In this document: positions 2,110-29,640 of the stretch, piece by piece
Layout: every line of letters begins with the position of its first letter
How positions within the stretch are numbered: position 1 is the stretch's first letter
The notes under the pieces: generated by a model
The model's input: only the letters and a program-made list of their open reading frames with translations
Databases searched by the model: none
Told to the model about the DNA's origin: nothing
Position numbers and translations under genes: made by a program
NCBI GenBank assembly: GCA_002712765.1
Contig: PAUP01000101.1
Span: 1 to 35,837 of the forward strand
Length of the DNA: 35,837 nt
Reading direction: 5' to 3'
DNA from: Cytophagaceae bacterium
GTDB taxonomy: Bacteria > Bacteroidota > Bacteroidia > Flavobacteriales > Flavobacteriaceae

Positions 2110-3759
2110 ATGAAGACAACTATTTTTAAAAACACATGGGTTTTGGCTTTGTGTTTAGGCATAACAATGTCATGCTCTAAAGAGGATGATACAATGACAT
2201 CAGGCAGTGGTGATCTCGTAGAAAGTAATGGCATAGCAGCCACCGAACTCGAGAGTTACCAAGGCGACATTGGTGTATTAATCCAAACCCAATCGCTAAT
2301 ACAAAAAGGCTATCAGGCGGCCACAGTAAGTGTTGATATAGAGGCCAGTAGTGGCAATTATAATACGACGCTTACTGTCGATGAATTTACCCATATTGCA
2401 CCGTATAAGCTCGTTTTGGACGAATTGTCAGAAGCGTCTAAAAATGAGTTGATGGATGGGGTGCCGATGTCGCTAAGCGTTAGAGATCAAAACGGATTAA
2501 CCGTTTTTGAACAGGACTTATCGGTAGTTTCTTTTAGTCAAAGTGGTACCGAAATCACCTTAAATACAACCCATCTAGAATATCAAAATTCGTCACCAGA
2601 GTTTAGAGCAGCAATGCCGCATTTTATCCAAACTGTTGATGCTGGAGGTAATTATTCAAATCTGGTTGTAGAAAAAAGTGCATCATCAGGAAGTAGTAGT
2701 ACCATATTGGCAGAGGCACCATCTAGTTTTGATGACGCCATAGAAAATCATCAGTATTATATAGTGCCTTTTCTGCAAGAAGCAGGTGTTTATGTGATAT
2801 ATAATAGACAAACAAGCCGCTATATTGCTACAGCCGATTCTAATAGTGTACTTACTCAAAATGGAAGCCTCAATTTTCCCGCTGGCATGGATGGGAGCCT
2901 TCATCCGCGCTATAAATTTAGAATTAAGCGGGAGCCCAACGGGTTTTTTACCATTAGAAGATATGACAACAATAATCCGTACAAACGCTTTGACGCAGGC
3001 AGTGGTACTGTCTGGATAAGTAATGGTAGCGGATCGTCTATTCAATATTTTAATTTTATAGCGCTCAATATCGATTGGGAAATCACTCAGCTCGACACCA
3101 AACACTTACAACCTATTCTTCCTGCCGTAGATACCTCGTTTGGATTTAACAGTACCCTTGTAAATTGCGGTTCGGGAACCCTTACGCAAGAAGTAGGCAT
3201 TGAGCAAAACATTACCACTTCACAAACAGTAGGTTGGAATTCTAGTATTTCTGTGGCTACCCGCAATACTTTTGGCGCCGAGGTTACTGTAGGTGTATCT
3301 GCAGAGGCTAGCTTTTTTGGTGTGGGTGCCTCGGCAAGTGTAGAGGCCTCTGCGAGTTACGAATTCTCAAGAGAAGTAACCGAGTCTCGTGGTCGTTTTG
3401 GAGAAGCCACCTCCGAGGTGAGTAATAGTTATTTCTCAAGCCGAGAGGTTGTCGTGCCATCAGGACGGGCCTCTTTGGTCTATGATGCTTATCAAACCTA
3501 TAGCGATGTGGTTGTGCCGTTTGTCAAACGCTTTCGAATCAAAGCCAATGAGATTGACCCGTCTCAAGGTGATGCCATTATAGGCATACTCGACGGACAA
3601 ACCATAGCTTCACAATTTGATATGATGCAGTTTAACGGTGTCATTCAAGAGATAGGTTCAGACTTTATAGAAGTTTCGGTAAGTGGTTACAGCACCCTTG
3701 ATAACATTGTTGATACCCGTAGCGAGGTACGCGATGTAGCTGCAAATTGTGAGGGATAA
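2110..3759 (+). CDS. Lipoprotein with trefoil-like and aerolysin-like pore-forming regions
   Basis: 549 residues with a lipoprotein signal ending GITMSC (C22). An unassigned N-terminal region (about 35-200) is followed by a region at about 215-325 with NRQTSRYIATADSN and FTIRRYDNNNPYKRFDAGSG, which resembles a beta-trefoil or fascin-like repeat. The region from about 345 to the end is rich in Ser, Thr and Val in alternating patterns, with an amphipathic Gly/Ala/Ser stretch (about 389-417) and then VVVPSGRASLVYDAYQTY and DVVVPFVKRF. That arrangement resembles aerolysin/natterin-type beta-pore-forming proteins. C353 and C547 bracket this part and could form a disulfide. The assignment rests on pattern recognition, not a search. 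It may act on prey, host or competitor membranes, or be a surface adhesin. A second lipoprotein gene follows 105 bases downstream. Confidence 0.65.
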   Translation: MKTTIFKNTWVLALCLGITMSCSKEDDTMTSGSGDLVESNGIAATELESYQGDIGVLIQTQSLIQKGYQAATVSVDIEASSGNYNTTLTVDEFTHIAPYKLVLDELSEASKNELMDGVPMSLSVRDQNGLTVFEQDLSVVSFSQSGTEITLNTTHLEYQNSSPEFRAAMPHFIQTVDAGGNYSNLVVEKSASSGSSSTILAEAPSSFDDAIENHQYYIVPFLQEAGVYVIYNRQTSRYIATADSNSVLTQNGSLNFPAGMDGSLHPRYKFRIKREPNGFFTIRRYDNNNPYKRFDAGSGTVWISNGSGSSIQYFNFIALNIDWEITQLDTKHLQPILPAVDTSFGFNSTLVNCGSGTLTQEVGIEQNITTSQTVGWNSSISVATRNTFGAEVTVGVSAEASFFGVGASASVEASASYEFSREVTESRGRFGEATSEVSNSYFSSREVVVPSGRASLVYDAYQTYSDVVVPFVKRFRIKANEIDPSQGDAIIGILDGQTIASQFDMMQFNGVIQEIGSDFIEVSVSGYSTLDNIVDTRSEVRDVAANCEG

Positions 3760-4844: not shown

Positions 4845-4877
4845 AGCCTGTCTTTATAGATGGGCTTTTGTTTTTTT
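4845..4877 (+). terminator. Rho-independent terminator after the lipoprotein pair
   Basis: AGCCTGTC (4845-4852) pairs with GATGGGCT (4859-4866), with two G-U pairs and loop TTTATA, followed by TTTGTTTTTTT. It ends the lipoprotein transcript. It also shows that the ATG at 4860, inside the right arm, is not the start of the next gene. Confidence 0.7.
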
Positions 4878-4896
4878 ATGCTTTCGCGAAAGCATA
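4877..4896. repeat. Dispersed palindrome, 20-base perfect copy 2
   Basis: TATGCTTTCGCGAAAGCATA is a perfect 20-base palindrome. It directly follows the T-run of the terminator and lies 14 bases before the TATCTTTG element of the permease gene, covering the place where a -33 element would sit. Confidence 0.9.
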
Positions 4897-4910
4897 TAAG
4901 CCAACACTCG

Positions 4911-4918
4911 TATCTTTG
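4911..4918 (+). promoter_or_regulatory. TAnnTTTG -7 element of the permease gene
   Basis: TATCTTTG matches the Bacteroidetes -7 consensus TAnnTTTG. The start codon at 4926 is only seven bases downstream, so the transcript would be leaderless or nearly so. No clear TTG -33 element is seen; the palindrome occupies that region. Confidence 0.5.
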
Positions 4919-4925
4919 GAAAGAT

Positions 4926-5684
4926 ATGACAGATATTCAACTCTATCTTCTGGCAAGTTTGGGTGCTTTATTTGCAGGTGCCATAAATACCCTCGCTGGA
5001 AATGGTAGTGCGATAACCCTTACCATTCTAACCGAGCTTCTTGGATTACCACCCAATATGGCAAATGGGACAAACCGAATAGGCATATTTACCCAGAGCA
5101 GTGCGGCTTCTTGGGTATTTTACAAAGGCGGACAACTCGATATAGCCAAACGCAAAAATTATCTTTTCTGGATTGTTATTGGGGCTATCGCAGGAGCTGT
5201 GGTGGCTGTTAATGTGAGTAACGAGCAGTTTAGGGCCTTTTTTAGATTTATGCTGGTCTTTATGCTGGTGGCCGTATTGGTCAAACCCAAGCGATGGTTG
5301 CGCCCTACAGATCATGATTTTACACCTCCATGGTACCTCTATGTGCCCTTATTGTTTGGTTTAGGCTTTTACGGAGGTTTTATTCAAATGGGTATGGGCG
5401 TTTTCTTTTTGATCATTACCGTGTTGATTTTGCGTATCAATATTATAGAGAGCAATGCTTTAAAAGGATTTGTTATTGCGGTATATACCGCCGTGGTCAT
5501 CGCCATGTTTGCCTATAATAATCTTATAGATTGGAAAATAGGATGTATTATGGCTATTGGACAAACCTTAGGAGGCTGGCTCACCGCAAGATTTGCTACC
5601 AAAGTAGCCTGGGCCGATAAAGCCGCCTATTATCTTTTGATTATTGTTTTGATTGCTGCAGTAACCAAGATGTGGTTTTTTTAA
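4926..5684 (+). CDS. TauE/SafE-family membrane permease
   Basis: 252 residues from the ATG at 4926. The sequence is highly hydrophobic, with about seven to eight membrane helices. The N-terminal helix contains LGALFAGAINTLAGNGSAIT, the small-residue-rich motif of TauE/SafE (DUF81) permeases, and a second similar half follows near FYGGFIQMGMGVFFLI. Members export sulfite, sulfoacetate or other organic anions, but the substrate here is not shown. The start at 4926 is preferred because an upstream ATG at 4860 lies in a terminator stem and a TAnnTTTG element ends just before 4926. It is convergent with the di-haem gene; the two stop codons share TTAA at 5681-5684. Confidence 0.85.
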   Translation: MTDIQLYLLASLGALFAGAINTLAGNGSAITLTILTELLGLPPNMANGTNRIGIFTQSSAASWVFYKGGQLDIAKRKNYLFWIVIGAIAGAVVAVNVSNEQFRAFFRFMLVFMLVAVLVKPKRWLRPTDHDFTPPWYLYVPLLFGLGFYGGFIQMGMGVFFLIITVLILRINIIESNALKGFVIAVYTAVVIAMFAYNNLIDWKIGCIMAIGQTLGGWLTARFATKVAWADKAAYYLLIIVLIAAVTKMWFF

Positions 5685-6754
5685 AATTCTGCAAATCTTC
5701 TATCGTTGATAAAATCGTTGTCGGTAAGTGTTTTTAAAAAGGCGATAAGCTGAAGTTTTTCTGATTCGGAAATGTCCAAGCCAAGACTTCCATCTTCTTT
5801 CCTAAACTGATCATCTAAAGTCGGGCTATCTACTATACCATCGGTATAAAAATCGAGTACTGCTTTTAGTGTAGGTAGCCTGCCGTCGTGCATATAAGGA
5901 AATGTAGTGTCTATATTTCGCAATGAGGGCACTCTAAATTTTCTTCGGTCTTCGGGTAATCCAGTGACGCGCTCACGTCCCATATCATTAAAACTTGGAT
6001 CTATGGCCAAGCCGTTATTTCTAAAACTCTGGTCGGTTTGCAAAGGCCCCGCGTGACAACTGGCGCACTTGCTTTCAAATAATAATCTTCCGGCTTCCTC
6101 ATCTGGGGTAAAGCTTACGGCTTCTGCACGTTGCCATTTGTCATATTTAGAATTGCCAGCCACCATCATGACCATAAACTGTGAGAGCGCTTTAAACAAG
6201 CGTTCGGTGGTAATATCATCACTGCCAAAGGCGTCTTTAAACATGCCTGGGTAGCGATCGTCTGCTTGTAATTTTGAAATCACATTACTGATGCTCTCAT
6301 TCATTTCATCTTCGGCGGTCAAGGGGATAATAGGCTGAGCGTCTAGAAAGCTCACAGCACCATCCCAAGTAAAATCTGTCAAAAAGGCCAAATTTTGTAA
6401 AGGCTGAGCATTGCGTTTACCAATTTTACCATCTACACCATGACTCGTAATATGGGTATGATGGGTAAAGGAGAATTCCTGTATATGGCAAAAACCACAA
6501 GATACTACACCGTCAGAAGCTAGTCTACCATCGTAAAAGAGTCTCTTGCCTAGTTCAAAACCTTTTTCGGTAGGTGGGTTTTGAGTGATGGGATACGTCA
6601 AGTCTGGAAAGTTGGCAGGAACTTCAAAATTGAGTAAGGTATTGGTTTGCTCAGGAATTTCGGTATAGTCGTCGTCTGTGCTATTAGCCACCTCATTGTC
6701 TGTACTACAGCTAAGTAGCAGAAGTAAAATCGTTATGTAAATGCCATTTCTCAT
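5681..6754 (-). CDS. MbnH/MauG-like di-haem cytochrome c peroxidase family lipoprotein
   Basis: 357 residues. The lipoprotein signal ends LLLLSC (C16). There are two c-type haem sites: CGFCH (C86-H90) and CASCH (C230-H234), spaced as in the bacterial cytochrome c peroxidase/MauG family. FPYMHDGRLPTLKAVLDFY (about 286-303) is the conserved second-haem region. The gene directly follows an MbnP-like gene with a one-base TAATG overlap, so the best call is the MbnH type, which oxidises a tryptophan of MbnP to kynurenine. A general peroxidase is the alternative. It is the last gene of a five-gene operon and acts on the periplasmic or outer face. The gene ends against the convergent permease with no room for a terminator. 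Confidence 0.85.
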   Translation of the reverse strand: MRNGIYITILLLLLSCSTDNEVANSTDDDYTEIPEQTNTLLNFEVPANFPDLTYPITQNPPTEKGFELGKRLFYDGRLASDGVVSCGFCHIQEFSFTHHTHITSHGVDGKIGKRNAQPLQNLAFLTDFTWDGAVSFLDAQPIIPLTAEDEMNESISNVISKLQADDRYPGMFKDAFGSDDITTERLFKALSQFMVMMVAGNSKYDKWQRAEAVSFTPDEEAGRLLFESKCASCHAGPLQTDQSFRNNGLAIDPSFNDMGRERVTGLPEDRRKFRVPSLRNIDTTFPYMHDGRLPTLKAVLDFYTDGIVDSPTLDDQFRKEDGSLGLDISESEKLQLIAFLKTLTDNDFINDRRFAEF

Positions 6755-7530
6755 TAGCCTCTTGGTATAAAAAATGCCGTTTGAATATTGTTTGCAATCT
6801 TGGGCGCATTGACCGGATCTACTTGGATATCTGTTTTGGCTTCAATACTAATAGTGTTAGGACCATCAAAAACACGTCCCACATCAAAAAAGATACCTTC
6901 AACAGCAGGGGCATCTTCTTCAATGATAAGCGGATCTCCAGTATCAGAGATGAGCGACAATTCGATTTCTTTGTAGTTGTCAAGTGTTGCCCCATGACTG
7001 CCTACATGAATCACAAAAGGGGTGGGTGTAGGCGTGGTGTCACTGGTAAAACTCCCTTCAAATTTGATAAATTTATACCCCGCAGACCACGTCCAGAGCA
7101 TGTCGGCTTCTTCGGCAGTAGGGACAAAATTAAGAGTTCCTGATGCTATTGGATATTTGGTAGGATCAACCCCAAACCCAAAGGTGAGTTGGGTGTATGC
7201 GCCTGCATCAATATTGCTTAGACGAATCATTTGAGTTGATGGCTTTGCCTGATCTATCACAAAATAACTCTCATCGACAGGATAGATAAACGCATCGCCC
7301 TCGATATTGGTCAAACGGATGTTAGAAATGATATACTTTAACTCCTCTACCACATAGGTCTCGCCGCTTGTATTTTGATAAGCTTCTCCTAAATCCAAAA
7401 GATCAGCACCAACAGTGTGCATAAGATTCAATTCTAGCGTACCGGGATTTTTGGATGTGGTTTCATCATTGTCACAACTCAAGAGTCCAATACTAATGGC
7501 AATAATACTTAGGTAATCAAAGGCTTTCAT
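6754..7530 (-). CDS. MbnP-like copper-binding lipoprotein
   Basis: 258 residues. The lipoprotein signal ends GLLSC (C19). The body fits the MbnP family: LELNLMHTVGADLLDLGEAY near the N-terminus, VEELKYIISNIRL (61-73), and MLWTWSAGYKFIKFEG (144-159), which holds W146 and W148. FVIHVGSHG (172-180) gives H175 and H179; with H38 these are candidate copper ligands. In characterised MbnP proteins one tryptophan is converted to kynurenine by the partner di-haem enzyme and the product binds copper. That partner is encoded next with a TAATG overlap. Which Trp is changed here is not known. The gene lies four bases after the propeller lipoprotein gene. Confidence 0.85.
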   Translation of the reverse strand: MKAFDYLSIIAISIGLLSCDNDETTSKNPGTLELNLMHTVGADLLDLGEAYQNTSGETYVVEELKYIISNIRLTNIEGDAFIYPVDESYFVIDQAKPSTQMIRLSNIDAGAYTQLTFGFGVDPTKYPIASGTLNFVPTAEEADMLWTWSAGYKFIKFEGSFTSDTTPTPTPFVIHVGSHGATLDNYKEIELSLISDTGDPLIIEEDAPAVEGIFFDVGRVFDGPNTISIEAKTDIQVDPVNAPKIANNIQTAFFIPRG

Positions 7531-7534
7531 TACG

Positions 7535-8956
7535 TTATTCTATTTTAATTACAACGGCATCTAGACCGCCTTTATTTTGGGTTATATCTCCAGAGTTACT
7601 TTGAGTGTCTCCTGCAATGTATATCACTTGTCCGTTATGGGTTGTAATACCATAGCCAAAATCGAGATCGCTACCGCCATAAGCCGCTTGCCAACGCAAA
7701 TCTCCAGCGCTGTCTATTTGTGCGGTCCAAAGATCGGTTTGTCCTTGATTGGTGTCGAGGTCGCCATCGGTGCTTCTCGAGGCACCTGTAATGACAATAT
7801 CACTACCAAATTGTGCGGCATCTCTAGCACTGTCAAAACCAGATCCTCCTAAGGTTTTTTCCCAAAGAATGGTTCCCTGCAGATCAATTTTTACTAACCA
7901 AACATCGGCAGCGCCTTTAAAATTACTGACATCACCATCGGTGCTCCGGGTATCACCTACGAGCAAGTAATTTCCATCTTGTGTTTTGGTCACGGCATAG
8001 GCAATGTCTATCTCACTACCGCCATAATTGCGCTGCCACAATAAATTACCAGAGCTGTCCAGATGAACAGCCCAAAAATCATAGCTCCCTTTAGAGTTGG
8101 TGATATCAAAATCGGTGCTCTCTGTAGCACCTACCAATAATAATCCTTGATTCTGAGTCTCGACTACGCCATAGGCGCGGTCGTTGTTACTGCCTCCAAA
8201 ATAGCGTCGCCAAATCAAATTGCCATTGGCATCTAATTTATGCCCCCAAAATTCTCCTACGCCATGTCTACCATCATTACCTTGCCCGCCAGATGCTGTG
8301 ACATCCAAGAAGCCCGCTGTGAAAAACCCGCCATCGCTGGTTTGAATGATAGAAAATGCCTGATCTGAACCCGAGTAACCAAAATTCTTTTGCCATTGCA
8401 CATTTCCATTGCTGTCCAATTTGACAATCCACTGATCGGCAAAACCGGCATTATCACTGGCATCACCATCACCACTTTTGGCAAAACCAACCAGCGCAAA
8501 ACCGCCATCATTGGTTTGTATGAGTTGTTGCCCGCGATCGTCGTCACTGCCACCATATGTTTTTGACCACTCCACACTGCCATTGGCATCGGCCTTTAAG
8601 AGCCAATACATATTGACCTGAGTATCGTTGTCTGAGACATCGCCATCAATACTTTGAGAATATCCTAAAGCCGCAAAGCCCCCATCTTGTGTAGCGATGA
8701 TATCCTGAAAGCTATCGTTCTGACTTCCTCCATAGGTATTGATAAAGGCCAAGTCTAAACTAGCCGGATCGGTATCGTCGGGTGGGTTAGTGGTGTCGTC
8801 TGTCTCTTCTGCTTCATCAGGAGTTACTGGGGGATCGTCGTCGCTACAGGCCGTAATAAGTACTAAAGAAAGTATGAGTAGGAGCTGTATTGATTTTCGC
8901 GTAAAGCAAAAAAACCCGTCAAGCCCTCCAGAAATATGTATAGATTGTCGTTGCAT
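7535..8956 (-). CDS. Seven-repeat beta-propeller lipoprotein
   Basis: 473 residues from the ATG at 8956; a longer TTG-started frame to 8986 is possible but less likely. A long basic N-terminus leads to the hydrophobic segment SIQLLLILSLVLITAC (lipid Cys at 37), then an acidic, proline-rich linker. After that come seven copies of a unit beginning (Y/F/L)GGSxxD, followed by TxDGGF, a GD-rich turn and a W-x-x-K-(L/I)-D strand. This is typical of a seven-bladed propeller. No catalytic residues are evident. It is the third gene of the operon, 35 bases after the upstream propeller gene, and ends four bases before the MbnP-like gene. A surface binding role is inferred. Confidence 0.75.
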   Translation of the reverse strand: MQRQSIHISGGLDGFFCFTRKSIQLLLILSLVLITACSDDDPPVTPDEAEETDDTTNPPDDTDPASLDLAFINTYGGSQNDSFQDIIATQDGGFAALGYSQSIDGDVSDNDTQVNMYWLLKADANGSVEWSKTYGGSDDDRGQQLIQTNDGGFALVGFAKSGDGDASDNAGFADQWIVKLDSNGNVQWQKNFGYSGSDQAFSIIQTSDGGFFTAGFLDVTASGGQGNDGRHGVGEFWGHKLDANGNLIWRRYFGGSNNDRAYGVVETQNQGLLLVGATESTDFDITNSKGSYDFWAVHLDSSGNLLWQRNYGGSEIDIAYAVTKTQDGNYLLVGDTRSTDGDVSNFKGAADVWLVKIDLQGTILWEKTLGGSGFDSARDAAQFGSDIVITGASRSTDGDLDTNQGQTDLWTAQIDSAGDLRWQAAYGGSDLDFGYGITTHNGQVIYIAGDTQSNSGDITQNKGGLDAVVIKIE

Positions 8957-8991
8957 TTTTCTTTTTAATATGTTGTGAGTCACCAAGACTT

Positions 8992-10263
8992 CTATGTACC
9001 TGTCTTTCTAAGTACAAAAAAACCTCCGCTGCGATCACTTACAATAAGGTTCCCGCTTTCAAAATAAGGATATACTGTCCAGGCGCCGTCAAAACCTGGG
9101 GTGTCGCTATCTATAAAGGTGTCAAAATAACCAATGTCAAAAATGTCATTACCCGCGATGCCGGTAAGGTCTACTACACGCATTCCCGCCTTGTAATTTG
9201 CGATAAAGAGTTCATTTTCTTTGGTATAATAATTGTGATCGGTAGCGGTTGTTGGGCCAATAAAGCTTCCTTGTTGAAAAGGGTTGTCCAAATCTGTAAA
9301 GTCAAATATGATAGAGCGGGTGTTAAAACCAAAATTGGTTTCGTCAAACTCGTCATTGGCAATAAAATAACCTTGATCTTGGGTAAGCCAACCCTGATGG
9401 GTAAAACCAATATTGCTATAAGTGGCTATAGCAATAATGTTAGGATCTTGTTTATTGGTCACATCTATAATGACAACCTCGTCTTCATTACTCCCAATAA
9501 ATATTTCGTGGCCTTGATAGTCTGGATCTGGGCCAGCGTAAGTAACGACTTGCGCATCATGAGTATAGGTGCCTCCTTCAAAGCCTCCTTCAAAAACTGG
9601 ATTTTTTGGATCTTGGATATTGATAAAGTGGGGCCCACCATCAAAACTTTGAGTACCTACTACATAAGCATAACCCGTATCTTCATTTATGACAATATTA
9701 TGTGCATTACCAAACTGGGTGTAGTGCACATCTGCCTGATAGTCTTGAATGCTTCCTGGAAAATCTCTCAACTTGGTTAAGTCAAAAATCTGCATGCCAT
9801 GATTGGCCGCTTCACTAACAATAAAAGCATGATCTTTGTAAACCTTGATGTCACGCCAGGTAGAGCCATCTGTAGCTGTAGTAAGTCTACCCAAAATAAT
9901 AGGCTCGACAGGATTAGAAATATCGATAAATACCGTGCCTCTGCGCACACCCATTATCGCGTATTCTTTGCCGGTTAAAGGGTCGGTCCAACCCCAACTG
10001 TCATTGCCATTTCCTTCTGCATTGAGCTGGGTAAGGGTAAAATGTGACATCAAATCATAACCATTACAAGGGTAGATGCCAGCCAGACCATCTTCGCATG
10101 GGATGCGCCCGTCGTTGGTGTCTTCTTGCTGTTGCTCTTCCTCTTCCTCTTGATCACTGGTATCAGGGTTTTGAACAACAGCTTCAAAATCGCGGTCGTC
10201 ATCACCACAACTTATAACAGTCGTCAAACTTAAAAAGACAAGAAAGAAGCTCAATTTTCTCAT
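8992..10263 (-). CDS. Choice-of-anchor B family LVIVD propeller, lipoprotein form
   Basis: 423 residues. The lipoprotein signal ends TTVISC (C19) and is followed by a Glu/Gln-rich linker (about 36-48). The rest is an LVIVD-type propeller closely related to the protein of the gene just upstream: shared blocks are NDSWGWTDPLTGKEYA, WRDIKVYKDHAFIVSEA, GNAHNIVINEDTGYAY and THDAQVVTY. Histidines in HGMQ, AHN, GGPHF, THDAQ, THQGW and TDHN are kept in both. It has no type IX sorting tail. The start codon overlaps the upstream stop as ATGA (10260-10263), so the two are translationally coupled. The choice-of-anchor B family is known for carrying varied surface anchors; its function is not established. 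Confidence 0.85.
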   Translation of the reverse strand: MRKLSFFLVFLSLTTVISCGDDDRDFEAVVQNPDTSDQEEEEEQQQEDTNDGRIPCEDGLAGIYPCNGYDLMSHFTLTQLNAEGNGNDSWGWTDPLTGKEYAIMGVRRGTVFIDISNPVEPIILGRLTTATDGSTWRDIKVYKDHAFIVSEAANHGMQIFDLTKLRDFPGSIQDYQADVHYTQFGNAHNIVINEDTGYAYVVGTQSFDGGPHFINIQDPKNPVFEGGFEGGTYTHDAQVVTYAGPDPDYQGHEIFIGSNEDEVVIIDVTNKQDPNIIAIATYSNIGFTHQGWLTQDQGYFIANDEFDETNFGFNTRSIIFDFTDLDNPFQQGSFIGPTTATDHNYYTKENELFIANYKAGMRVVDLTGIAGNDIFDIGYFDTFIDSDTPGFDGAWTVYPYFESGNLIVSDRSGGFFVLRKTGT

Positions 10264-11675
10264 TGCTTAATTATTCGCTGAGTTGCAGTGGCGGTTTGTA
10301 CAAAGTATACCCCAGCATGTAGGTTAGAAATATCGAGTTGTAGGCGGGAGGCTGTGGTCGAGGTTTGTAATACTTCTTGGCCCAAAATATTGTAAATACG
10401 TATCTCCCCTATGGCCAATGATCGCTGTGCTATCGTAATTTGTTTGTTGGCAGGGTTAGGATATAGCGATAGGTTTTCGTCTTCGGTAAAATCATCAACA
10501 CTTAGGAAATCAGGATCGGCTACGAGTGTAAATCCAGAATCGCCACTCAAGACCATATTTCCACTTGGGAAAAACGGATAAACATTCCATAAACCCGAGG
10601 TGCCTACTTGATCGCTACCGGGTACTGTATCAAAAAAGCCTATCTCTTCCATATTTTTATTGTCGATATCGCTAATGTCAATCACTCGCATACCGGCTCG
10701 GTAACTCGCTAGGTAATACTTGTTCCCTCTAACATACCCATTGTGATCGGTAGAGGTGTTGGTGCCTTCGTATTCAAAGTGCAAAACAGGGTTATCCAAA
10801 TCTTCAAAATCGAAAATCAGGGTTCTCGTATTAAATCCAAAACCAATCTCGTCTGTCTCGTCACCCAACAAAAAATAGCGTTGATCTTCTGTAAACCATC
10901 CTTGGTGGGTATATCCCAAATTTGCATAGACGATCGTAGCAATTTCTACTGGATTATCTTTGTCTGTGATATCGACAATCGCTACAATGTCTTCGTTGCT
11001 TCCAATAAGAATTTCGCGTCCTGTATAATCTGTGTCTGGCCCGTTATAAGTAACTACTTGCGCATCGTGACTATAAGAGTTTTGAGCATATCCTCCGGCT
11101 GCAACGGGATTGATCGGGTCTTGTATATTTACAAAGTGTGGCCCGCCGTTAAAGGTGGTGGTGCCCACCCCATACGCATAGCCCGTATCTTCGTTAATCA
11201 CAATATTGTGGGCGTTTCCAAAGCCGTCATAATGAGCATCGGCCGAAAAGTTTTCTGGAGGATTGGATACATCACGTAATCGGGTGAGGTCAAAAACTTG
11301 CATCCCATGACCCGAAGCTTCACTAACGATAAAGGCATGATTTTGATACACTTTGATATCCCTCCAAACACTATTACTAGTGTGGGTAGGTAATTTTCCT
11401 AACCATACGGGTTCTATAGGATCGGTGATATCTATAAAAGCAGTGCCATTATCCAGTCCAATGAGTGCGTATTCACGACCTGAATCAGGATCTACCCAGC
11501 CCCAAGAATCATTGGCAAAAGAAGCCGAAAGCTCGCCAGGGGTAAATCTTGACAATAAGTCATAACCCTCGCAAGGGAAGCCATCGGCTTGGCCATTATC
11601 ACAAGGGGTTTGTGCAGGTAATACACTAAAACTAAATAGAGTCACTGCAAAAGTTAAAAGGGTAGTTTTGAACAT
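10260..11675 (-). CDS. Choice-of-anchor B family LVIVD propeller with type IX sorting tail
   Basis: 471 residues. The signal peptide ends around LPAQ (about 18-21). Two cysteines (C25, C35) precede the LVIVD-type propeller (about 37-385), with H123, H148, H156, H180, H203, H257 and H311 in motifs shared with the next gene. The C-terminus (about 401-471) is a type IX secretion sorting domain: LSLYPNPANKQITI, then IRIYNILGQEV, LDISNLHAGVYFVQ and a basic end. The protein is therefore secreted or attached to the surface by the type IX system. It is the first gene of the operon. I found no clear TAnnTTTG element in the 262-base divergent gap before thiL. Metal binding by the shared histidines is inference. 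Confidence 0.85.
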   Translation of the reverse strand: MFKTTLLTFAVTLFSFSVLPAQTPCDNGQADGFPCEGYDLLSRFTPGELSASFANDSWGWVDPDSGREYALIGLDNGTAFIDITDPIEPVWLGKLPTHTSNSVWRDIKVYQNHAFIVSEASGHGMQVFDLTRLRDVSNPPENFSADAHYDGFGNAHNIVINEDTGYAYGVGTTTFNGGPHFVNIQDPINPVAAGGYAQNSYSHDAQVVTYNGPDTDYTGREILIGSNEDIVAIVDITDKDNPVEIATIVYANLGYTHQGWFTEDQRYFLLGDETDEIGFGFNTRTLIFDFEDLDNPVLHFEYEGTNTSTDHNGYVRGNKYYLASYRAGMRVIDISDIDNKNMEEIGFFDTVPGSDQVGTSGLWNVYPFFPSGNMVLSGDSGFTLVADPDFLSVDDFTEDENLSLYPNPANKQITIAQRSLAIGEIRIYNILGQEVLQTSTTASRLQLDISNLHAGVYFVQTATATQRIIKQ

Positions 11676-11925
11676 GTTGTGGAGGTATAGGATTTTCTTT
11701 TTGTGCTTACATATATAACAGTTTGATAGCGGTGATTCCTACCTAAATACGGTAAAATCTTAGACCCTTTATAACAAATGGATCTACTACTCAAACTGCT
11801 GAATGATATTCTGGAACTAAAAATACAAAAGAAATTAAGTGTTTTGGCAAAATCCGATAAGCATTTACCCCTTACTTACGCGCAGCTCAACCCTAAAATC
11901 TGATCGCTATTACCAATATCTTAGC

Positions 11926-11933
11926 TACCTTTG
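11926..11933 (+). promoter_or_regulatory. TAnnTTTG -7 element of thiL
   Basis: TACCTTTG matches the Bacteroidetes -7 consensus and ends four bases before the ATG at 11938. The transcript would start at or next to the start codon. This also favours 11938 over the longer frame from 11839. Confidence 0.5.
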
Positions 11934-11937
11934 CAGC

Positions 11938-12990
11938 ATGTTAGAAGATAAAGACCCACAGCGTACCGCCTTGAGTGAACTTGGCGAATTTGGATTGATC
12001 GCTCATTTGACCGAACATTTTAAAATAGCTCATAGCTCGACCATTAAAGGTATTGGAGATGATGCAGCCATACTCGAATTTGACAAGCAGCAACTAGTAA
12101 TCACTACCGATTTGCTCGTAGAAGGAGTACATTTTGATTTGAGCTATATGCCGCTTAAACATTTGGGCTATAAAGCCGTAATGGTTAATCTTTCTGACGT
12201 TTATGCTATGAATGCCTCTGCTAGTCAGATCACAGTGTCAATTGCAGTGTCTAACAGATTTCCCTTGGAGGCCTTAGAAGATTTGTATGCGGGGATACAA
12301 ACGGCTTGCATCAATTACAAGGTCGACTTGGTTGGAGGAGACACCACTTCATCTAATACGGGTCTTGTCATTAGTATTACTGCTGTAGGTCACGCTGTCG
12401 CGAAAGAAATCACTACCAGAGCTACGGCTAAACCTAATGACTTACTAGTGGTCACTGGAGATATAGGTGCCGCTTATATGGGATATCAGGTCCTGGAGCG
12501 AGAAAAACAAGTCTTTGCAGTCAATCCAAACAATCAACCCGATCTGGAACCTTATTCGTATATCGTAGAGCGACAATTAAAACCAGAAGCGCGTAAGGAT
12601 ATTAAGCCTTTGTTGGCGCAATTAGACGTTCATCCCACATCTATGATTGATATTAGTGATGGTTTGTCATCTGAGATCTTACATTTGTGCAAGGCCTCTG
12701 AGGTTGGATGTAATTTATTTGAAGACAAAATTCCATTAGACCCACAGGTTATTCAGGTGTGCGAAGAGTTTGAACTAGACAGCACGACCATTGCACTAAG
12801 TGGAGGCGAAGATTATGAATTGCTCTTTACCATATCTCAAGATGACTATCCTAAGATAAAGGCCAATCCAAATCTGACCGTTATCGGACATATGACCGAA
12901 GAAAAAGAAGGGGCGCATTTGATAACTCGAGCCAATACTAAAATTCCTTTGATTGCTCGTGGTTGGAACGCGCTAGATCCAAAAGAATAA
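11938..12990 (+). CDS. thiL: Thiamine-monophosphate kinase
   Basis: 350 residues from the ATG at 11938. ThiL phosphorylates thiamine monophosphate to the diphosphate cofactor using ATP in the cytoplasm. Visible family motifs are SELGEFGLIAHL at the N-terminus, GIGDDAAIL (about 38-46, metal and phosphate binding), LVITTDLLVEGVHFD, MVNLSDVYAMNA, LVGGDTTSS, MIDISDGLSSE and LSGGEDYELLFTI. The length is normal for the family. A frame open from 11839 would add 33 residues that do not resemble ThiL, and a -7 element sits just before 11938. The neighbours are unrelated, so it is probably a single-gene unit. At 12394-12407 a degraded half copy of the dispersed palindrome is seen. Confidence 0.93.
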   Translation: MLEDKDPQRTALSELGEFGLIAHLTEHFKIAHSSTIKGIGDDAAILEFDKQQLVITTDLLVEGVHFDLSYMPLKHLGYKAVMVNLSDVYAMNASASQITVSIAVSNRFPLEALEDLYAGIQTACINYKVDLVGGDTTSSNTGLVISITAVGHAVAKEITTRATAKPNDLLVVTGDIGAAYMGYQVLEREKQVFAVNPNNQPDLEPYSYIVERQLKPEARKDIKPLLAQLDVHPTSMIDISDGLSSEILHLCKASEVGCNLFEDKIPLDPQVIQVCEEFELDSTTIALSGGEDYELLFTISQDDYPKIKANPNLTVIGHMTEEKEGAHLITRANTKIPLIARGWNALDPKE

Positions 12991-17189: not shown

Positions 17190-18461
17190 ATGAAACTTAC
17201 CAAACAAACTTTTGTCACGGCATTTGCGTTGTTTTCTTTATTTTTTGGAGCCGGAAATTTAATTTTTCCTGCCTTTCTAGGTTTTAATGCTGGGTCAGGC
17301 TTTTTCTGGGTAGCTTTGGGATTTATAGCCTCTGCTGTGATGATACCTATAATGGCGGTAGTGGCTCATGCCCGTTTGCAGGGTACGATGATGGATTTTG
17401 CGGCTAAGGTTTCTCCAGTTTTTGCCTTGATATATTGCATTATTGTTTATGCCATCTCGATCTCCTTTCCCAGTCCTAGAACAGCTTCGGTAACCTATGA
17501 GATGTCCATACAACCCTATTTAGACATTCCTTCGTGGGTGTTGAGCTTGGGATATTTTGTCTTGGTGCTTTTTCTGGTCTGGAATAGGTCAAAAATCTTA
17601 GATCTTATAGGTAAATATCTCACTCCGGGCATTCTTGTCATTTTGAGTGCCATCATTGGTATAGGACTTTTTGGAGACTATGCCCCTATGAAGCCCTCGG
17701 TCTATGCGTCTAATTTGAGTAGTGGGATATTAGAAGGGTATCAAACCTTTGACGCCATAGGCGGTGTTGTCGTAGGAGCAGTAGTTGTGATTTCATTGCG
17801 ATTAAAAGGGCTGTCACCAAAATTGAGCAGACATGTCATTACTAAAGCTGGCATTATTGCAGGTTTAGGATTTGTACTCATTTATGTGGGGCTCATTGCT
17901 CTAGGTGCTTTGGTAAGTGGTAGTTATACGGTAGATAATCGCGTTGAATTATTACAAACTTTGAGTCTTTCTTCTCTAGGCGCTATGGGGCAAGCCGCTT
18001 TAAGTGTCTTGGTCGCACTGGCTTGTTTTACGACTGCAGTAGGAATTGTAGCTGGTACCGCCGATTTTGTTAAAGGACTTTTTAATCAGAGTGAACGTGC
18101 CTACAAGATAACAGCTATTATAGGTTGTATTCTGGGTGTTGTTATGGGGCAGTTGGACGTGCACAGTATAATTACGGTTGCTTATCCAGCCTTGATGCTC
18201 ATCTACCCTGTGACAATTGTGTTAATTCTTTTAAATGTTTTGCCAGAGCGCTACGCTTCGGTCTTTGTCTTTAGAGCGGTGATTATAACAGTGGTGCTGT
18301 TTAGTTTTCCAGACTTTTTGGCAAAATTGGGTATGGCCGATCAAATGAGTGAACTTCAAGAAATTATACCCTTGGGTGCTGCCAATTTGGGCTGGTTGCT
18401 TCCCGCAATAAGCGTGTTTCTGCTATGCAATCTTTATCAACATTTTGTACTTTCAGATTAA
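17190..18461 (+). CDS. brnQ: Branched-chain amino acid transporter, BrnQ family
   Basis: 423 residues from the ATG at 17190. Hydrophobic throughout with about 12 membrane helices. The N-terminal LFSLFFGAGNLIFPAFLG (about 14-31) is the signature of the LIVCS branched-chain amino acid:cation symporters. It imports Leu, Ile and Val into the cell. A frame open from 17109 overlaps the divergent hydrolase and adds a non-hydrophobic leader, so 17190 is preferred. The next gene starts 55 bases downstream on the same strand, and no terminator is seen between them. Confidence 0.93.
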   Translation: MKLTKQTFVTAFALFSLFFGAGNLIFPAFLGFNAGSGFFWVALGFIASAVMIPIMAVVAHARLQGTMMDFAAKVSPVFALIYCIIVYAISISFPSPRTASVTYEMSIQPYLDIPSWVLSLGYFVLVLFLVWNRSKILDLIGKYLTPGILVILSAIIGIGLFGDYAPMKPSVYASNLSSGILEGYQTFDAIGGVVVGAVVVISLRLKGLSPKLSRHVITKAGIIAGLGFVLIYVGLIALGALVSGSYTVDNRVELLQTLSLSSLGAMGQAALSVLVALACFTTAVGIVAGTADFVKGLFNQSERAYKITAIIGCILGVVMGQLDVHSIITVAYPALMLIYPVTIVLILLNVLPERYASVFVFRAVIITVVLFSFPDFLAKLGMADQMSELQEIIPLGAANLGWLLPAISVFLLCNLYQHFVLSD

Positions 18462-18516
18462 TTGGGCTACATTTAACACAGTAATCTTCCCCCAATTTTT
18501 ATTGCAAACACCAATT

Positions 18517-19866
18517 ATGTTAAGAAGATCATTTTTTCTAGGTCTTGTCGTTTTAATGAGCTCTTGTGCCCAAGATGCAGACGACTATGAGTTGTTCACT
18601 TCAGACGAGCTCGACAGTGAGATTGCTGTCTTAATAGATATTGCATCTTCAGGAGAAGGCAATGGCTTTTTTATATTGCCAGAAAGTGATGATTATGCTG
18701 CAATCCCTCAAGATCCTTTAAATCCTATCACGCCTGCCAAGGTGGCCTTAGGCAAATTATTGTTACATGAAACCGCTATGGGAGGGCGTCCCAAAATGGA
18801 AGAGCGTGTGTTTCAATATGCCTGTGCTACTTGTCACCCTGTGGCATCAGCCTTTGCATCTGGAAGACGTCAAGGTATCGGTGAAGGCGGTATCGGCTTT
18901 GGTCTCCAAGGAGAAGGTCGTTTTGTCGATCCTGAGATGCCCTTAGATTCTTTGGATGTACAACCTATTAAAACGCCAACGCTGCTTAATTTGGCGTATC
19001 AGGATGTTGCTTTGTGGGACGGTCGTTTTGGCGGTACAGGAACCAACGCGGGAACCGAGAGCGGATGGGATTTGATCCCCGAAAATTATGAAGGATTTCA
19101 AGGTATTGAAGTTCAAGCCATGCAAGGTCAGGACGAACACCGCTTGCTGGTCGATGAGGCTTTTGTTGATGCCTATGGGTATCGGGCAATGTTTGATGCA
19201 GCATTTGGTGAGCTTCCACAAGATCAAAGATATACTAGAAAGACGGCAGCCTTAGCTATTGCAGCTTTTAACCGTACGCTACTTTCAAATCAGGCGCCTT
19301 GGCAGTCTTATCTAAAAAATGATCTCCAAGCCTTGACTCCACAAGAAAAGCGAGGGGCTATCGTATTTTTAAACGAAGGTAAATGCGTGCAGTGTCATAC
19401 GGGACCAGCATTAAAAGATAAAGCTTTTCATGCATTTGGATTTGGAGAATTTGACAACAGTCCAGATGCTATCGTCAAACCGGATGTTAATATGGAACTA
19501 GTACAGAGAGGTCGGGGTAGTTTTACTGGAAACCCCGACGATAACTATAGGTTTAAAACCCCAACCTTGTATAATCTTTTAGATATTGGTGTGTATGGTC
19601 ATGGCGCTACCTTTTCTTCAATAGAGGATGTTGTCCTTTATAAAAATGAAGGAAATCCTCAAAATATCAATGTCCCTAGATCGGCTTTATCTGATGCTTT
19701 TACCACCTTAAACCTCAGTCAAGATCAAATCAAAGATTTGACCGCCTTTTTGACCAATGCTTTAAGAGATCCAAACTTGGAACGCTACGTGCCAGATGCC
19801 GTCAATTCAGGCTTCTGTTTTCCGGCAAATGATCCTACAGCTCGCGAGGATTTAGGATGTGACTAG
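18517..19866 (+). CDS. Di-haem cytochrome c peroxidase-like lipoprotein
   Basis: 449 residues from the ATG at 18517, with a lipoprotein signal ending LMSSC (C17). Two haem c sites are present: CATCH (C103-H107) and CVQCH (C290-H294). ALWDGRFGG and FKTPTLYNLLDIGVYGHG are family blocks; the latter is in the second-haem region. It belongs to the same broad family as the MbnH-like protein at 5681-6754 but is longer and has a different C-terminus with extra cysteines (CFPANDPTAREDLGC). It may reduce peroxide in the periplasm or act as a MauG-like oxidase. No MbnP partner is next to it. It follows brnQ closely. Confidence 0.85.
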   Translation: MLRRSFFLGLVVLMSSCAQDADDYELFTSDELDSEIAVLIDIASSGEGNGFFILPESDDYAAIPQDPLNPITPAKVALGKLLLHETAMGGRPKMEERVFQYACATCHPVASAFASGRRQGIGEGGIGFGLQGEGRFVDPEMPLDSLDVQPIKTPTLLNLAYQDVALWDGRFGGTGTNAGTESGWDLIPENYEGFQGIEVQAMQGQDEHRLLVDEAFVDAYGYRAMFDAAFGELPQDQRYTRKTAALAIAAFNRTLLSNQAPWQSYLKNDLQALTPQEKRGAIVFLNEGKCVQCHTGPALKDKAFHAFGFGEFDNSPDAIVKPDVNMELVQRGRGSFTGNPDDNYRFKTPTLYNLLDIGVYGHGATFSSIEDVVLYKNEGNPQNINVPRSALSDAFTTLNLSQDQIKDLTAFLTNALRDPNLERYVPDAVNSGFCFPANDPTAREDLGCD

Positions 19867-28734: not shown

Positions 28735-29640
28735 ATGGGACACCATCATCATCATCATGGGCATGGACAGGATACTAAAAATATCAAGGTTGCATTTTTT
28801 ATCAACCTAGTCTTTACAATTATTGAGATAGTAGGGGGTGTTTTAACCAATAGCGTGGCTATACTTTCTGACGCGGTACACGATTTGGGCGATAGTCTTT
28901 CTTTAGGACTTGCCTGGTATTTTCAAAACTATTCCAAACGCGAACGCAGTTCATCTTATAGTTATGGCTATGGACGTTTTTCGCTTTTGGGAGCGATTAT
29001 TAATTCGATTGTGCTCGTGGTGGGCAGTATTTTTATTCTTACAGAAGCCATACCAAGACTTATCGCACCAGAACAACCAGACACTTTTGGTATGATCATT
29101 CTTGGTGTGCTAGGAGTACTTTTTAATGGTGCTGCGGTGTTGCGTCTCAAAAAAGGTTCGAGTATCAATGAACGCGTGGTGGCCTTGCACCTGTTGGAAG
29201 ACGTTTTGGGCTGGGTGGCAGTATTGATAGGATCTATAGTAATGCATTTTTATGACATCCCAATTATTGACCCTATACTTTCTCTAGGTATTGCTGGTTT
29301 TATTTTATTTAATGTGTACAAAAACCTAAAGGAGACCATTCAGATCGTGATGCAAGGTGTGCCTAACGATGCCGATCTAGCCAAAGTAACCAACACCCTA
29401 TTGGCATTTGATGAGATAGCCGAAGTACACGATGTACATATTTGGTCTATGGATGGTCAGTACAATGTAATGACTGCTCACCTGGTTTTGAGCAAAAAGT
29501 TTGACCTACTCACTCTTGAGCCTCTTAAAAAACAAATACGCAGACAATTAGAAGATTCGAATATAGAACACGCCACGCTCGAATTTGAATTAAAAGATGC
29601 CCACTGCGATGTGAAGGTTGAGGCAAACAACAGGGATTGA
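28735..29640 (+). CDS. Cation diffusion facilitator (zinc/cobalt/cadmium exporter type)
   Basis: 301 residues. The protein begins MGHHHHHHGHGQD, a natural histidine cluster that can bind metal. Six membrane helices follow, with the CDF metal site SDAVHDLGDSLSLG (about 46-59) and a second site in LHLLEDVLGWVAVL (about 151-164). The C-terminal cytoplasmic domain contains EIAEVHDVHIWSMDG, usual for CzcD/ZitB-type members. It exports Zn2+ or similar ions from the cytoplasm. The exact metal is not shown. It follows a decayed gene and precedes sdhC on the same strand with its own gap. Confidence 0.93.
   Translation: MGHHHHHHGHGQDTKNIKVAFFINLVFTIIEIVGGVLTNSVAILSDAVHDLGDSLSLGLAWYFQNYSKRERSSSYSYGYGRFSLLGAIINSIVLVVGSIFILTEAIPRLIAPEQPDTFGMIILGVLGVLFNGAAVLRLKKGSSINERVVALHLLEDVLGWVAVLIGSIVMHFYDIPIIDPILSLGIAGFILFNVYKNLKETIQIVMQGVPNDADLAKVTNTLLAFDEIAEVHDVHIWSMDGQYNVMTAHLVLSKKFDLLTLEPLKKQIRRQLEDSNIEHATLEFELKDAHCDVKVEANNRD

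Follow-up and report, generated by a model that had tools for sequence, protein, structure and literature searches.

What does a pair of MbnP- and MbnH-type genes do when it stands behind surface propellers? The question is raised by an operon of five genes in a 35,837-nucleotide stretch of DNA from a Cytophagaceae bacterium that GTDB places in the Flavobacteriaceae (assembly GCA_002712765.1, contig PAUP01000101.1, positions 1 to 35,837 of the forward strand; the window is this whole stretch). The known MbnP/MbnH pair, or metallo-mystery pair (GenProp0940, TIGR04039/TIGR04052), likewise consists of adjacent di-haem MauG-like and MbnP-family genes. Such pairs occur far beyond methanobactin operons, and the section on the non-methanobactin pairs in a 2013 survey bears the heading "mysterious partners" (PMC3621798). 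In the family of the window the pair is an optional module at the end of a propeller operon, and where it is present a histidine cluster is missing from the propeller encoded directly upstream; this strict exclusion suggests one and the same job for the pair and for the histidines. The genes are labelled B (choice-of-anchor B propeller or propellers), S (SBBP-type propeller), P (MbnP-family) and H (MbnH/MauG-like):

10260..11675, minus strand: B1, a choice-of-anchor B (LVIVD-type) propeller with a type A sorting tail of the type IX secretion system (T9SS), 471 amino acids.
8992..10263, minus strand: B2, a choice-of-anchor B propeller with a lipobox-like C19, 423 amino acids.
7535..8956, minus strand: S, a seven-repeat SBBP-type propeller lipoprotein, 473 amino acids from the ATG at 8956.
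TTG 8986, minus strand: alternative start of S, giving 483 amino acids; residue numbers of S count from this codon.
Codons from 8440, 8368, 8362, 8266 and 7948 downwards, minus strand: A183, S207, Q209, H241 and R347 of the window's S.
6754..7530, minus strand: P, an MbnP-family lipoprotein of 258 amino acids with M144-x-W146-x-W148 ... H175-V-G-S.
7087..7101, minus strand: codons of the P motif MxWxW (M144, L145, W146, T147, W148).
7006..7008, minus strand: codon of P H175, invariant in the P of all 67 S-linked operons described below, of both types.
5681..6754, minus strand: H, an MbnH/MauG-like di-haem lipoprotein of 357 amino acids, with CxxCH at 86-90 and 230-234, W130, E150 and M288.
6440..6463, minus strand: His-rich loop of H (H98 H99 T H101 I T S H105).

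Loci with and without the P-H module at the B-S locus are termed PH+ and PH-, and the discovery set comprised 99 S loci, 67 of them PH+ and 32 PH-. In all 32 PH- loci S has histidines at 183, 207 and 209 (GFHDNW ... GHDHSYD); in all 67 PH+ loci H207 and H209 are absent, H183 being kept in 21%. His241 (HGVGEFW) is constant in both groups, and R347 occurs in 67/67 PH+ versus 0/32 PH- proteins. Forty held-out S loci were chosen from newly sampled genomes before their sequences were seen, the remaining new genomes being left unread. Twenty-one came from new genera, one from the genus of the window (L187, which is the L002 locus again) and four from genera in which the genome sampled before lacked S; the other 14 represent genera that had been used before. 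The 26 held-out PH+ loci, one of them this second copy of the L002 locus, all lack H207/H209 and all carry R347; the 14 PH- loci all have H183, H207, H209 and H241, with F or I at position 347. Since 39 of the 40 held-out loci are new, the rule holds without exception in 138 distinct loci (92 PH+ and 46 PH-).

The exclusion is a property of the locus. Genomes G075, G184 and G189, which serve as examples rather than as a census of genomes with MbnP away from the B-S locus, carry MbnP elsewhere and none at the locus, and their S keeps the histidine cluster; it is therefore the linked P-H module that counts, and these three genomes speak against the idea that a P-H module at any place in the genome sets the S state.

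The gene order itself is recurrent. Among 199 genomes of the family, 99 have MbnP and 110 have a choice_anch_B match (106 over the cut-off). The MbnP genes examined number 110, namely those of the window, of L002 and of 108 stretches from family-wide MbnP matches (the fragment G124:C48 was left out). S directly precedes P in 67 of them, and B precedes S there; H follows P immediately in 66 of these 67 operons. Co-occurrence of these genes in other genomes, on which the initial annotation had made its proposal of a joint system depend, is thus found repeatedly. The B genes per locus number one in 44 loci, two in 16, three in three and four in four, counts that are minima wherever a stretch or contig is cut off, and the median gaps are 9 bases (B-S), 4 (S-P) and 5 (P-H). 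No extra gene lies between B and H except in L035, where a sensor kinase-like gene (929 amino acids; NF008649 70.9 bits, below the cut-off) and a 227-amino-acid response regulator-like gene stand between P and H, in the region 8756-12171 of that locus.

The PH- loci were drawn from 34 genomes with choice_anch_B over the cut-off and no PF20243 match, of which 31 were fetched (all except G065, G112 and G149); addition of G422 from the phylum sample and of G075, G184 and G189 gave 35. These 35 B loci all belong to the family and have no MbnP beside them; in 32, B and S are adjacent without P-H, mostly between thiL and suf, and in the other three (L150, L153, L166), which do not enter the S counts, B stands without S. 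B-S is thus the core and P-H an optional module behind S. The earlier description of the operon as a copper pair joined to three propellers stands as to linkage and has to be turned around as to arrangement, as the propellers are the constant part. In a phylum-wide sample of 296 genomes choice_anch_B has a match in 110 (over the cut-off in 92), which makes B a wide family. S homologues scoring above 540 bits are confined, among the same 296, to the window's family (6 genomes; next best 353 bits); the B-S pairing therefore belongs, in this sample, to one family of bacteria.

The place of the operon is conserved as well. Within the fetched stretches ThiL is found in 89 and SufB in 91 of the 99 discovery S loci (both were identified by NCBIfam in L067). 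The median gap to sufA is 130 bases in PH+ loci (n=59) and 137 in PH- loci (n=30), as against the 4-9 bases found inside the operon, so that B-S(-P-H) has the look of a separate operon kept at a conserved site; by the same gaps membership in the suf operon is rejected as co-transcription. The window keeps thiL, its sufB sitting on another contig:

11839..12990, plus strand: thiL, divergent neighbour of the operon (TIGR01379, 312.3 bits).

Within the window, the five packed minus-strand genes at 5681-11675 were all found as first described, together with their junctions: an ATGA overlap at 10260-10263 (B1/B2), 35 bases from the end of B2 at 8992 to the S ATG (just 5 from the TTG), 4 bases between S and P, and TAATG at 6754 between P and H. 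Because lipobox-like cysteines can be read in B2, S, P and H, the claim that all the products are exported appears reasonable, B1 having its T9SS tail, and a surface location of the gene products is supported. The tail of H overlaps by four bases (5681-5684) a TauE/SafE-type exporter gene on the plus strand (4860-5684; 121.1 bits). A contig search of genomes with the P sequence returned a single relative.

The identity of the last two genes as an MbnP/MbnH pair is borne out at the level of Pfam. The reading frame at 6754-7530, for which a missing MbnP match would have counted against the whole proposal, scores 135.1 bits with MbnP PF20243 (cut-off 27), and H scores 161.6 bits with PF03150 (cut-off 25.6) and contains both CxxCH motifs. 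With the NCBIfam models P reaches 38.1 bits (TIGR04052, equivalog cut-off 140) and H 219.8 bits (TIGR04039 MbnH, cut-off 362.85); as both fall below the equivalog cut-offs, their family membership holds at the level of Pfam and no further. In a profile alignment (E 0.0092) M144, the WxW motif and H175 (HVGS) of P align with the solved MbnP 7l6g, the copper-binding MbnP of a methanotroph. Trp146 and Trp148, correctly numbered from the outset, are the sole two tryptophans of P. P lacks the four-Cys motif that the 7l6g molecule carries in its name, and its only cysteine is the lipobox-like Cys19. Manesis and colleagues are said to have reported in 2021 that conversion of the first Trp of MbnP to kynurenine enables copper binding, with His and Met binding the copper. 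The window's pair differs from the known one in its scores and cysteines, in its position within a surface-propeller operon, in its coupling to the state of S, and in its lack of MbnB: no match to PF05114 up to E 0.1 occurs in the window's own genome (2.77 Mb, 78% complete). A methanobactin cluster is rejected on this result, within the limits of an incomplete genome, and the absence of the methanobactin gene MbnB is supported. The P of the operon is the sole MbnP match of that genome.

The best PDB match of H is the "Di-heme enzyme" 6e1c (5.9e-42), which is taken here to be MbnH. Most of the 29 PDB matches are named peroxidases, and W130, E150, M288 and the two CxxCH motifs are peroxidase-like features, so that H could be thought an ordinary di-haem cytochrome c peroxidase of peroxide defence with P as its accessory. 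The identity of the best match, the adjacency of H to an MxWxW-bearing P through the TAATG junction, as in MbnH pairs, and the coupling to S, for which peroxide defence offers no explanation, make this very unlikely. A second di-haem cytochrome c peroxidase/MauG-like protein is encoded at 18445-19866 of the window on the plus strand (PF03150 76.8 bits; TIGR03981 110 bits, below the cut-off).

The P-H modules of the operons fall into two types. The canonical MxWxW...HxGS is present in eight of the 67 operon P proteins (the window, L002, L034, L035, L076, L088, L093 and L095); in the remaining 59 an insertion goes together with WxWP (11), WxVP (42) or FxVP (6), each followed by GGYH. To judge from these motifs, window-type P would offer a Met and a His near WxW, and the other type two candidate histidines, with WxW eroding. 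The window-type H carries FTHHxHxxSHG and QFMxMM in 8/8 cases; none of the 59 H proteins of the other type has H98, H99, H101 or H105. Of the 110 MbnP genes, 43 were scored as not behind S (one, L140, is cut by a contig end), and 41 of these have MxWxW. An FTHH- or FTHN-type loop is found in 28 stand-alone H proteins, and the window-type H groups with stand-alone H that have FTHHxH and, for the most part, QFMxMM in common with it; the H98-H105 loop thus marks a kind of H and not the operon. In the H tree the window-type H lies inside the stand-alone FTHH group (support 95-98), and a single clade of all operon H is not rejected by the approximately unbiased (AU) test (p 0.427), so that one origin of the operon H is neither claimed nor denied.

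Several stand-alone pairs have features of their own. Nine stand-alone H proteins (L040, L041, L042, L043, L045, L047, L049, L050 and L052) have PYGSFGQ in place of PYMHDG, and are thus without a Met at that place. In L040 a TonB copper receptor-like gene lies next to P (TIGR01778, 94 bits, cut-off 472.45); in the other eight of these loci a gene of similar size lies beside P, the receptor being identified in L040 only. In L036 (7902-11039) a stand-alone MbnP/MbnH pair is followed by a YHYH protein with a T9SS tail (PF14240), and genes similar by size alone follow the pair in L033, L037 and L038.

Methanotrophs offer a comparison. In their CorA/CorB and MopE/SACCP, a surface copper protein with a Trp-derived kynurenine is encoded beside a di-haem peroxidase-like gene, and the site of CorA consists of two His, kynurenine and water (PMC3912023); the other operon type of P (59/67) likewise has two candidate histidines, that of GGYH and H175. 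According to the 2013 survey (PMC3621798), the sequence of MbnP shows no marked resemblance to those of MopE and CorA; for the window's P the difference is taken from that literature on MbnP.

The constant partners of the module are B and S. Both B1 and B2 are clear members of the choice-of-anchor B family (choice_anch_B TIGR04312, 555.6 and 513.8 bits, cut-off 100). In a Pfam scan at 1e-3, B2 matches LVIVD only and B1 the sorting domain only (Por_Secre_tail, over the cut-off), and neither matches the SBP56 profile. The four invariant histidines of the family, a pattern read here, are His156, 203, 257 and 311 in B1; the conserved residues of B2 are as follows:

Codons from 9702, 9561, 9399 and 9237 downwards, minus strand: B2 His188, His235, His289 and His343.
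Other conserved residues of B2, same gene: W90, W92, W136, W395 and D304 E305 D307 E308.

The four histidines of B2 are spaced by 47, 54 and 54 residues, i.e., one per repeat, and the tryptophans sit at similar places of repeats other than the His-bearing ones. The four His and the D304 E305 D307 E308 residues are present in 101/101 PH+ proteins, W90 and W92 in 98, W136 in 100 and W395 in 101. The same histidines and acidic residues are found in all of 40 further proteins, 35 from PH- loci and five from loci outside the family (L176-L180), with His155 and Trp292 in 38 of these 40. Carotenoid oxygenases, which the four-His pattern of B resembles, are propeller enzymes with four-His centres. Methanethiol oxidase is a propeller too. 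This enzyme (SBP56/MtoX) is encoded in an operon with SCO1/SenC and mauG, and has His89, His90, His140 and His412, conserved Trp and a proposed tryptophan tryptophylquinone (TTQ) cofactor (PMC5739008); the likeness extends to the conserved His and Trp of B and to the MauG-like gene of its operon. On this model, put forward for the copper methanethiol oxidase, H would give B or S a cofactor derived from Trp, and the alike neighbourhood and the nearly invariant tryptophans of B are in its favor. B, however, lacks an SBP56 match and has an MbnP in its operon, and it keeps its residues in the 35 PH- loci and in the five proteins outside the family, with no site-like difference between the 101 PH+ and the 35 PH- proteins. 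As the conserved residues are equal with and without H, H is not needed for B; action of H on B is unlikely, and maturation of either propeller in this way improbable.

For S, a profile of 20 sequences matches the CylK propeller 7fh8 in the PDB (6.9e-30) and also "Bagel" propeller entries; with NCBIfam NF047494 S scores 37.3 bits, below the cut-off. It thus resembles the CylK-type/SBBP propellers by profile, and CylK chemistry is without evidence in S. Seven repeats were counted by eye. In a reading of these repeats, H183 would lie in a loop of blade 2, H207 and H209 in the loop into blade 3, and H241 in the matching loop of blade 3, and the His-bearing loops would share one face of the propeller.

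Some gut Bacteroides nutrient-binding lipoproteins are propellers. On a further reading of both proteins, B and S might capture copper or a copper complex at the surface, as other lipoproteins do B12 or siderophores, with P as a high-affinity store. Surface lipoproteins of gut Bacteroides do bind nutrients (BtuG, iron piracy), and CorA and MopE bind copper (PMC3912023). No TonB-dependent receptor lies inside the 67 operons, whose outer neighbours were profiled only in part, and the many invariant polar residues of B look, in our judgement, more like an active site; capture is accordingly regarded as unlikely.

The reading favored here, at a probability of about 0.42, is a cell-surface copper (redox) system of three layers in which P, matured by H, stands in for the metal site of S. 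B, whose four invariant histidines are predicted to hold one metal ion, would act as the catalyst or as the output protein. Where a relative has no MbnP at the locus, its S would have a metal site of its own, formed by the four-His cluster in the loops of blades 2-3. H, with peroxide, would oxidise W146 of P to kynurenine, which together with M144 and H175 would hold copper; P would replace the histidine cluster, probably docked on S, and S would serve B, the constant four-His protein. What the sequences show is the order of the genes, their families and residues, and that the S histidines and P-H strictly exclude each other; the copper, the kynurenine, the docking and the B enzyme are inferred. 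The suggestion of the initial annotation that the system modifies its own proteins is plausible for P only, B keeping its conserved residues without H; what differs with P-H is S, by its lack of histidines. The wider proposition, that choice-of-anchor B proteins are undescribed secreted four-His propeller metalloenzymes, widespread in Bacteroidota, and that the S four-His site and MbnP-MbnH are interchangeable modules, is doubtful when both halves are taken together.

How often the states have changed was followed on two trees. A ThiL-SufB-SufD tree held 91 of the 99 S loci (the eight without SufB in the stretch, including the window and L002, were left out). On the best tree PH status changes seven times, with at least five changes on starred branches, and a change always accompanies a change of S state (5/5 independent pairs, all in the same direction, p 0.0625). 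The S tree was rooted with one of eight distant S homologues that do not form one clade; this places the root among the PH+ loci (supports 80 and 97), which hints, with weak support, that S gained its His cluster when P-H was lost. L170 is PH- with the full His cluster, and its S lies next to that of the window (support 93), apart from the other 45 PH- loci; this is possibly a second, independent switch.

Several points weigh against the favored reading. The S tree itself shows just two changes of PH status, so that the independent molecular events are few and one or two of them may account for the exclusion; S type and P-H may mostly be inherited or exchanged as one block. Not the histidines alone but some sixty residue frequencies of S differ between PH+ and PH- proteins, as is expected of two lineages. 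The held-out loci are not fully independent, 14 of the 40 coming from genera already used. The single site of the S histidines is a reading of the repeats, and the repeat-register test of B is weak (four of six His-His pairs are best in register, all with negative scores). P and H stay below the equivalog cut-offs, and the alignment of P to 7l6g is weak. Finally, 59 of the 67 operon P proteins lack MxWxW and six have Phe for the first Trp, so that the site there must differ from that of MbnP; for P of the window's type one may fairly guess at kynurenine chemistry, for the group as a whole one may not.

Much of this could also follow from linkage without partnership, P-H being a self-contained copper cassette inserted behind S, and S consisting of two old lineages one of which carries it. 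The two changes on the S tree, the many differing S columns, the B proteins without a notable residue difference, and the 43 MbnP genes not behind S, which show that the pair exists without B-S, all agree with this. Against it, H207/H209 and P-H are never together and never both missing in the 138 loci, despite easy loss of P-H, and the locus-level changes, at least five, all obey the rule. Linkage of this kind is possible, if on balance doubtful, and the reading in which P-H replaces the S histidines is preferred.

Elsewhere in the window, 2110-3759 encodes a 549-amino-acid lipoprotein-like open reading frame with no Pfam or NCBIfam match at 1e-3, whose alternating Ser/Ala/Gly-rich stretch is reminiscent of aerolysin-type pore-forming proteins; at 28735-29640 the sequence reads as a cation-efflux-like membrane protein whose native start is MGHHHHHHGHG.

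None of the papers found in the open-licence literature uses the term "choice-of-anchor B", and no paper among the matches listed treats choice-of-anchor B and MbnP/MbnH jointly, the main MbnP/MbnH papers lying outside that coverage. Relative to the papers found, the recurrent operon, the modularity of P-H and the exclusion with the S histidine cluster are new, and the parts are known families. Outside methanobactin operons, the MbnP/MbnH pair now has a recurrent partner operon in one bacterial family; the exclusion in 138 loci is a genetic clue to its job. Choice-of-anchor B proteins become likely metalloproteins with defined residues to mutate. If the favored reading is true, MbnP/MbnH would be a plug-in copper site for another protein, and not only a means of copper storage or uptake.

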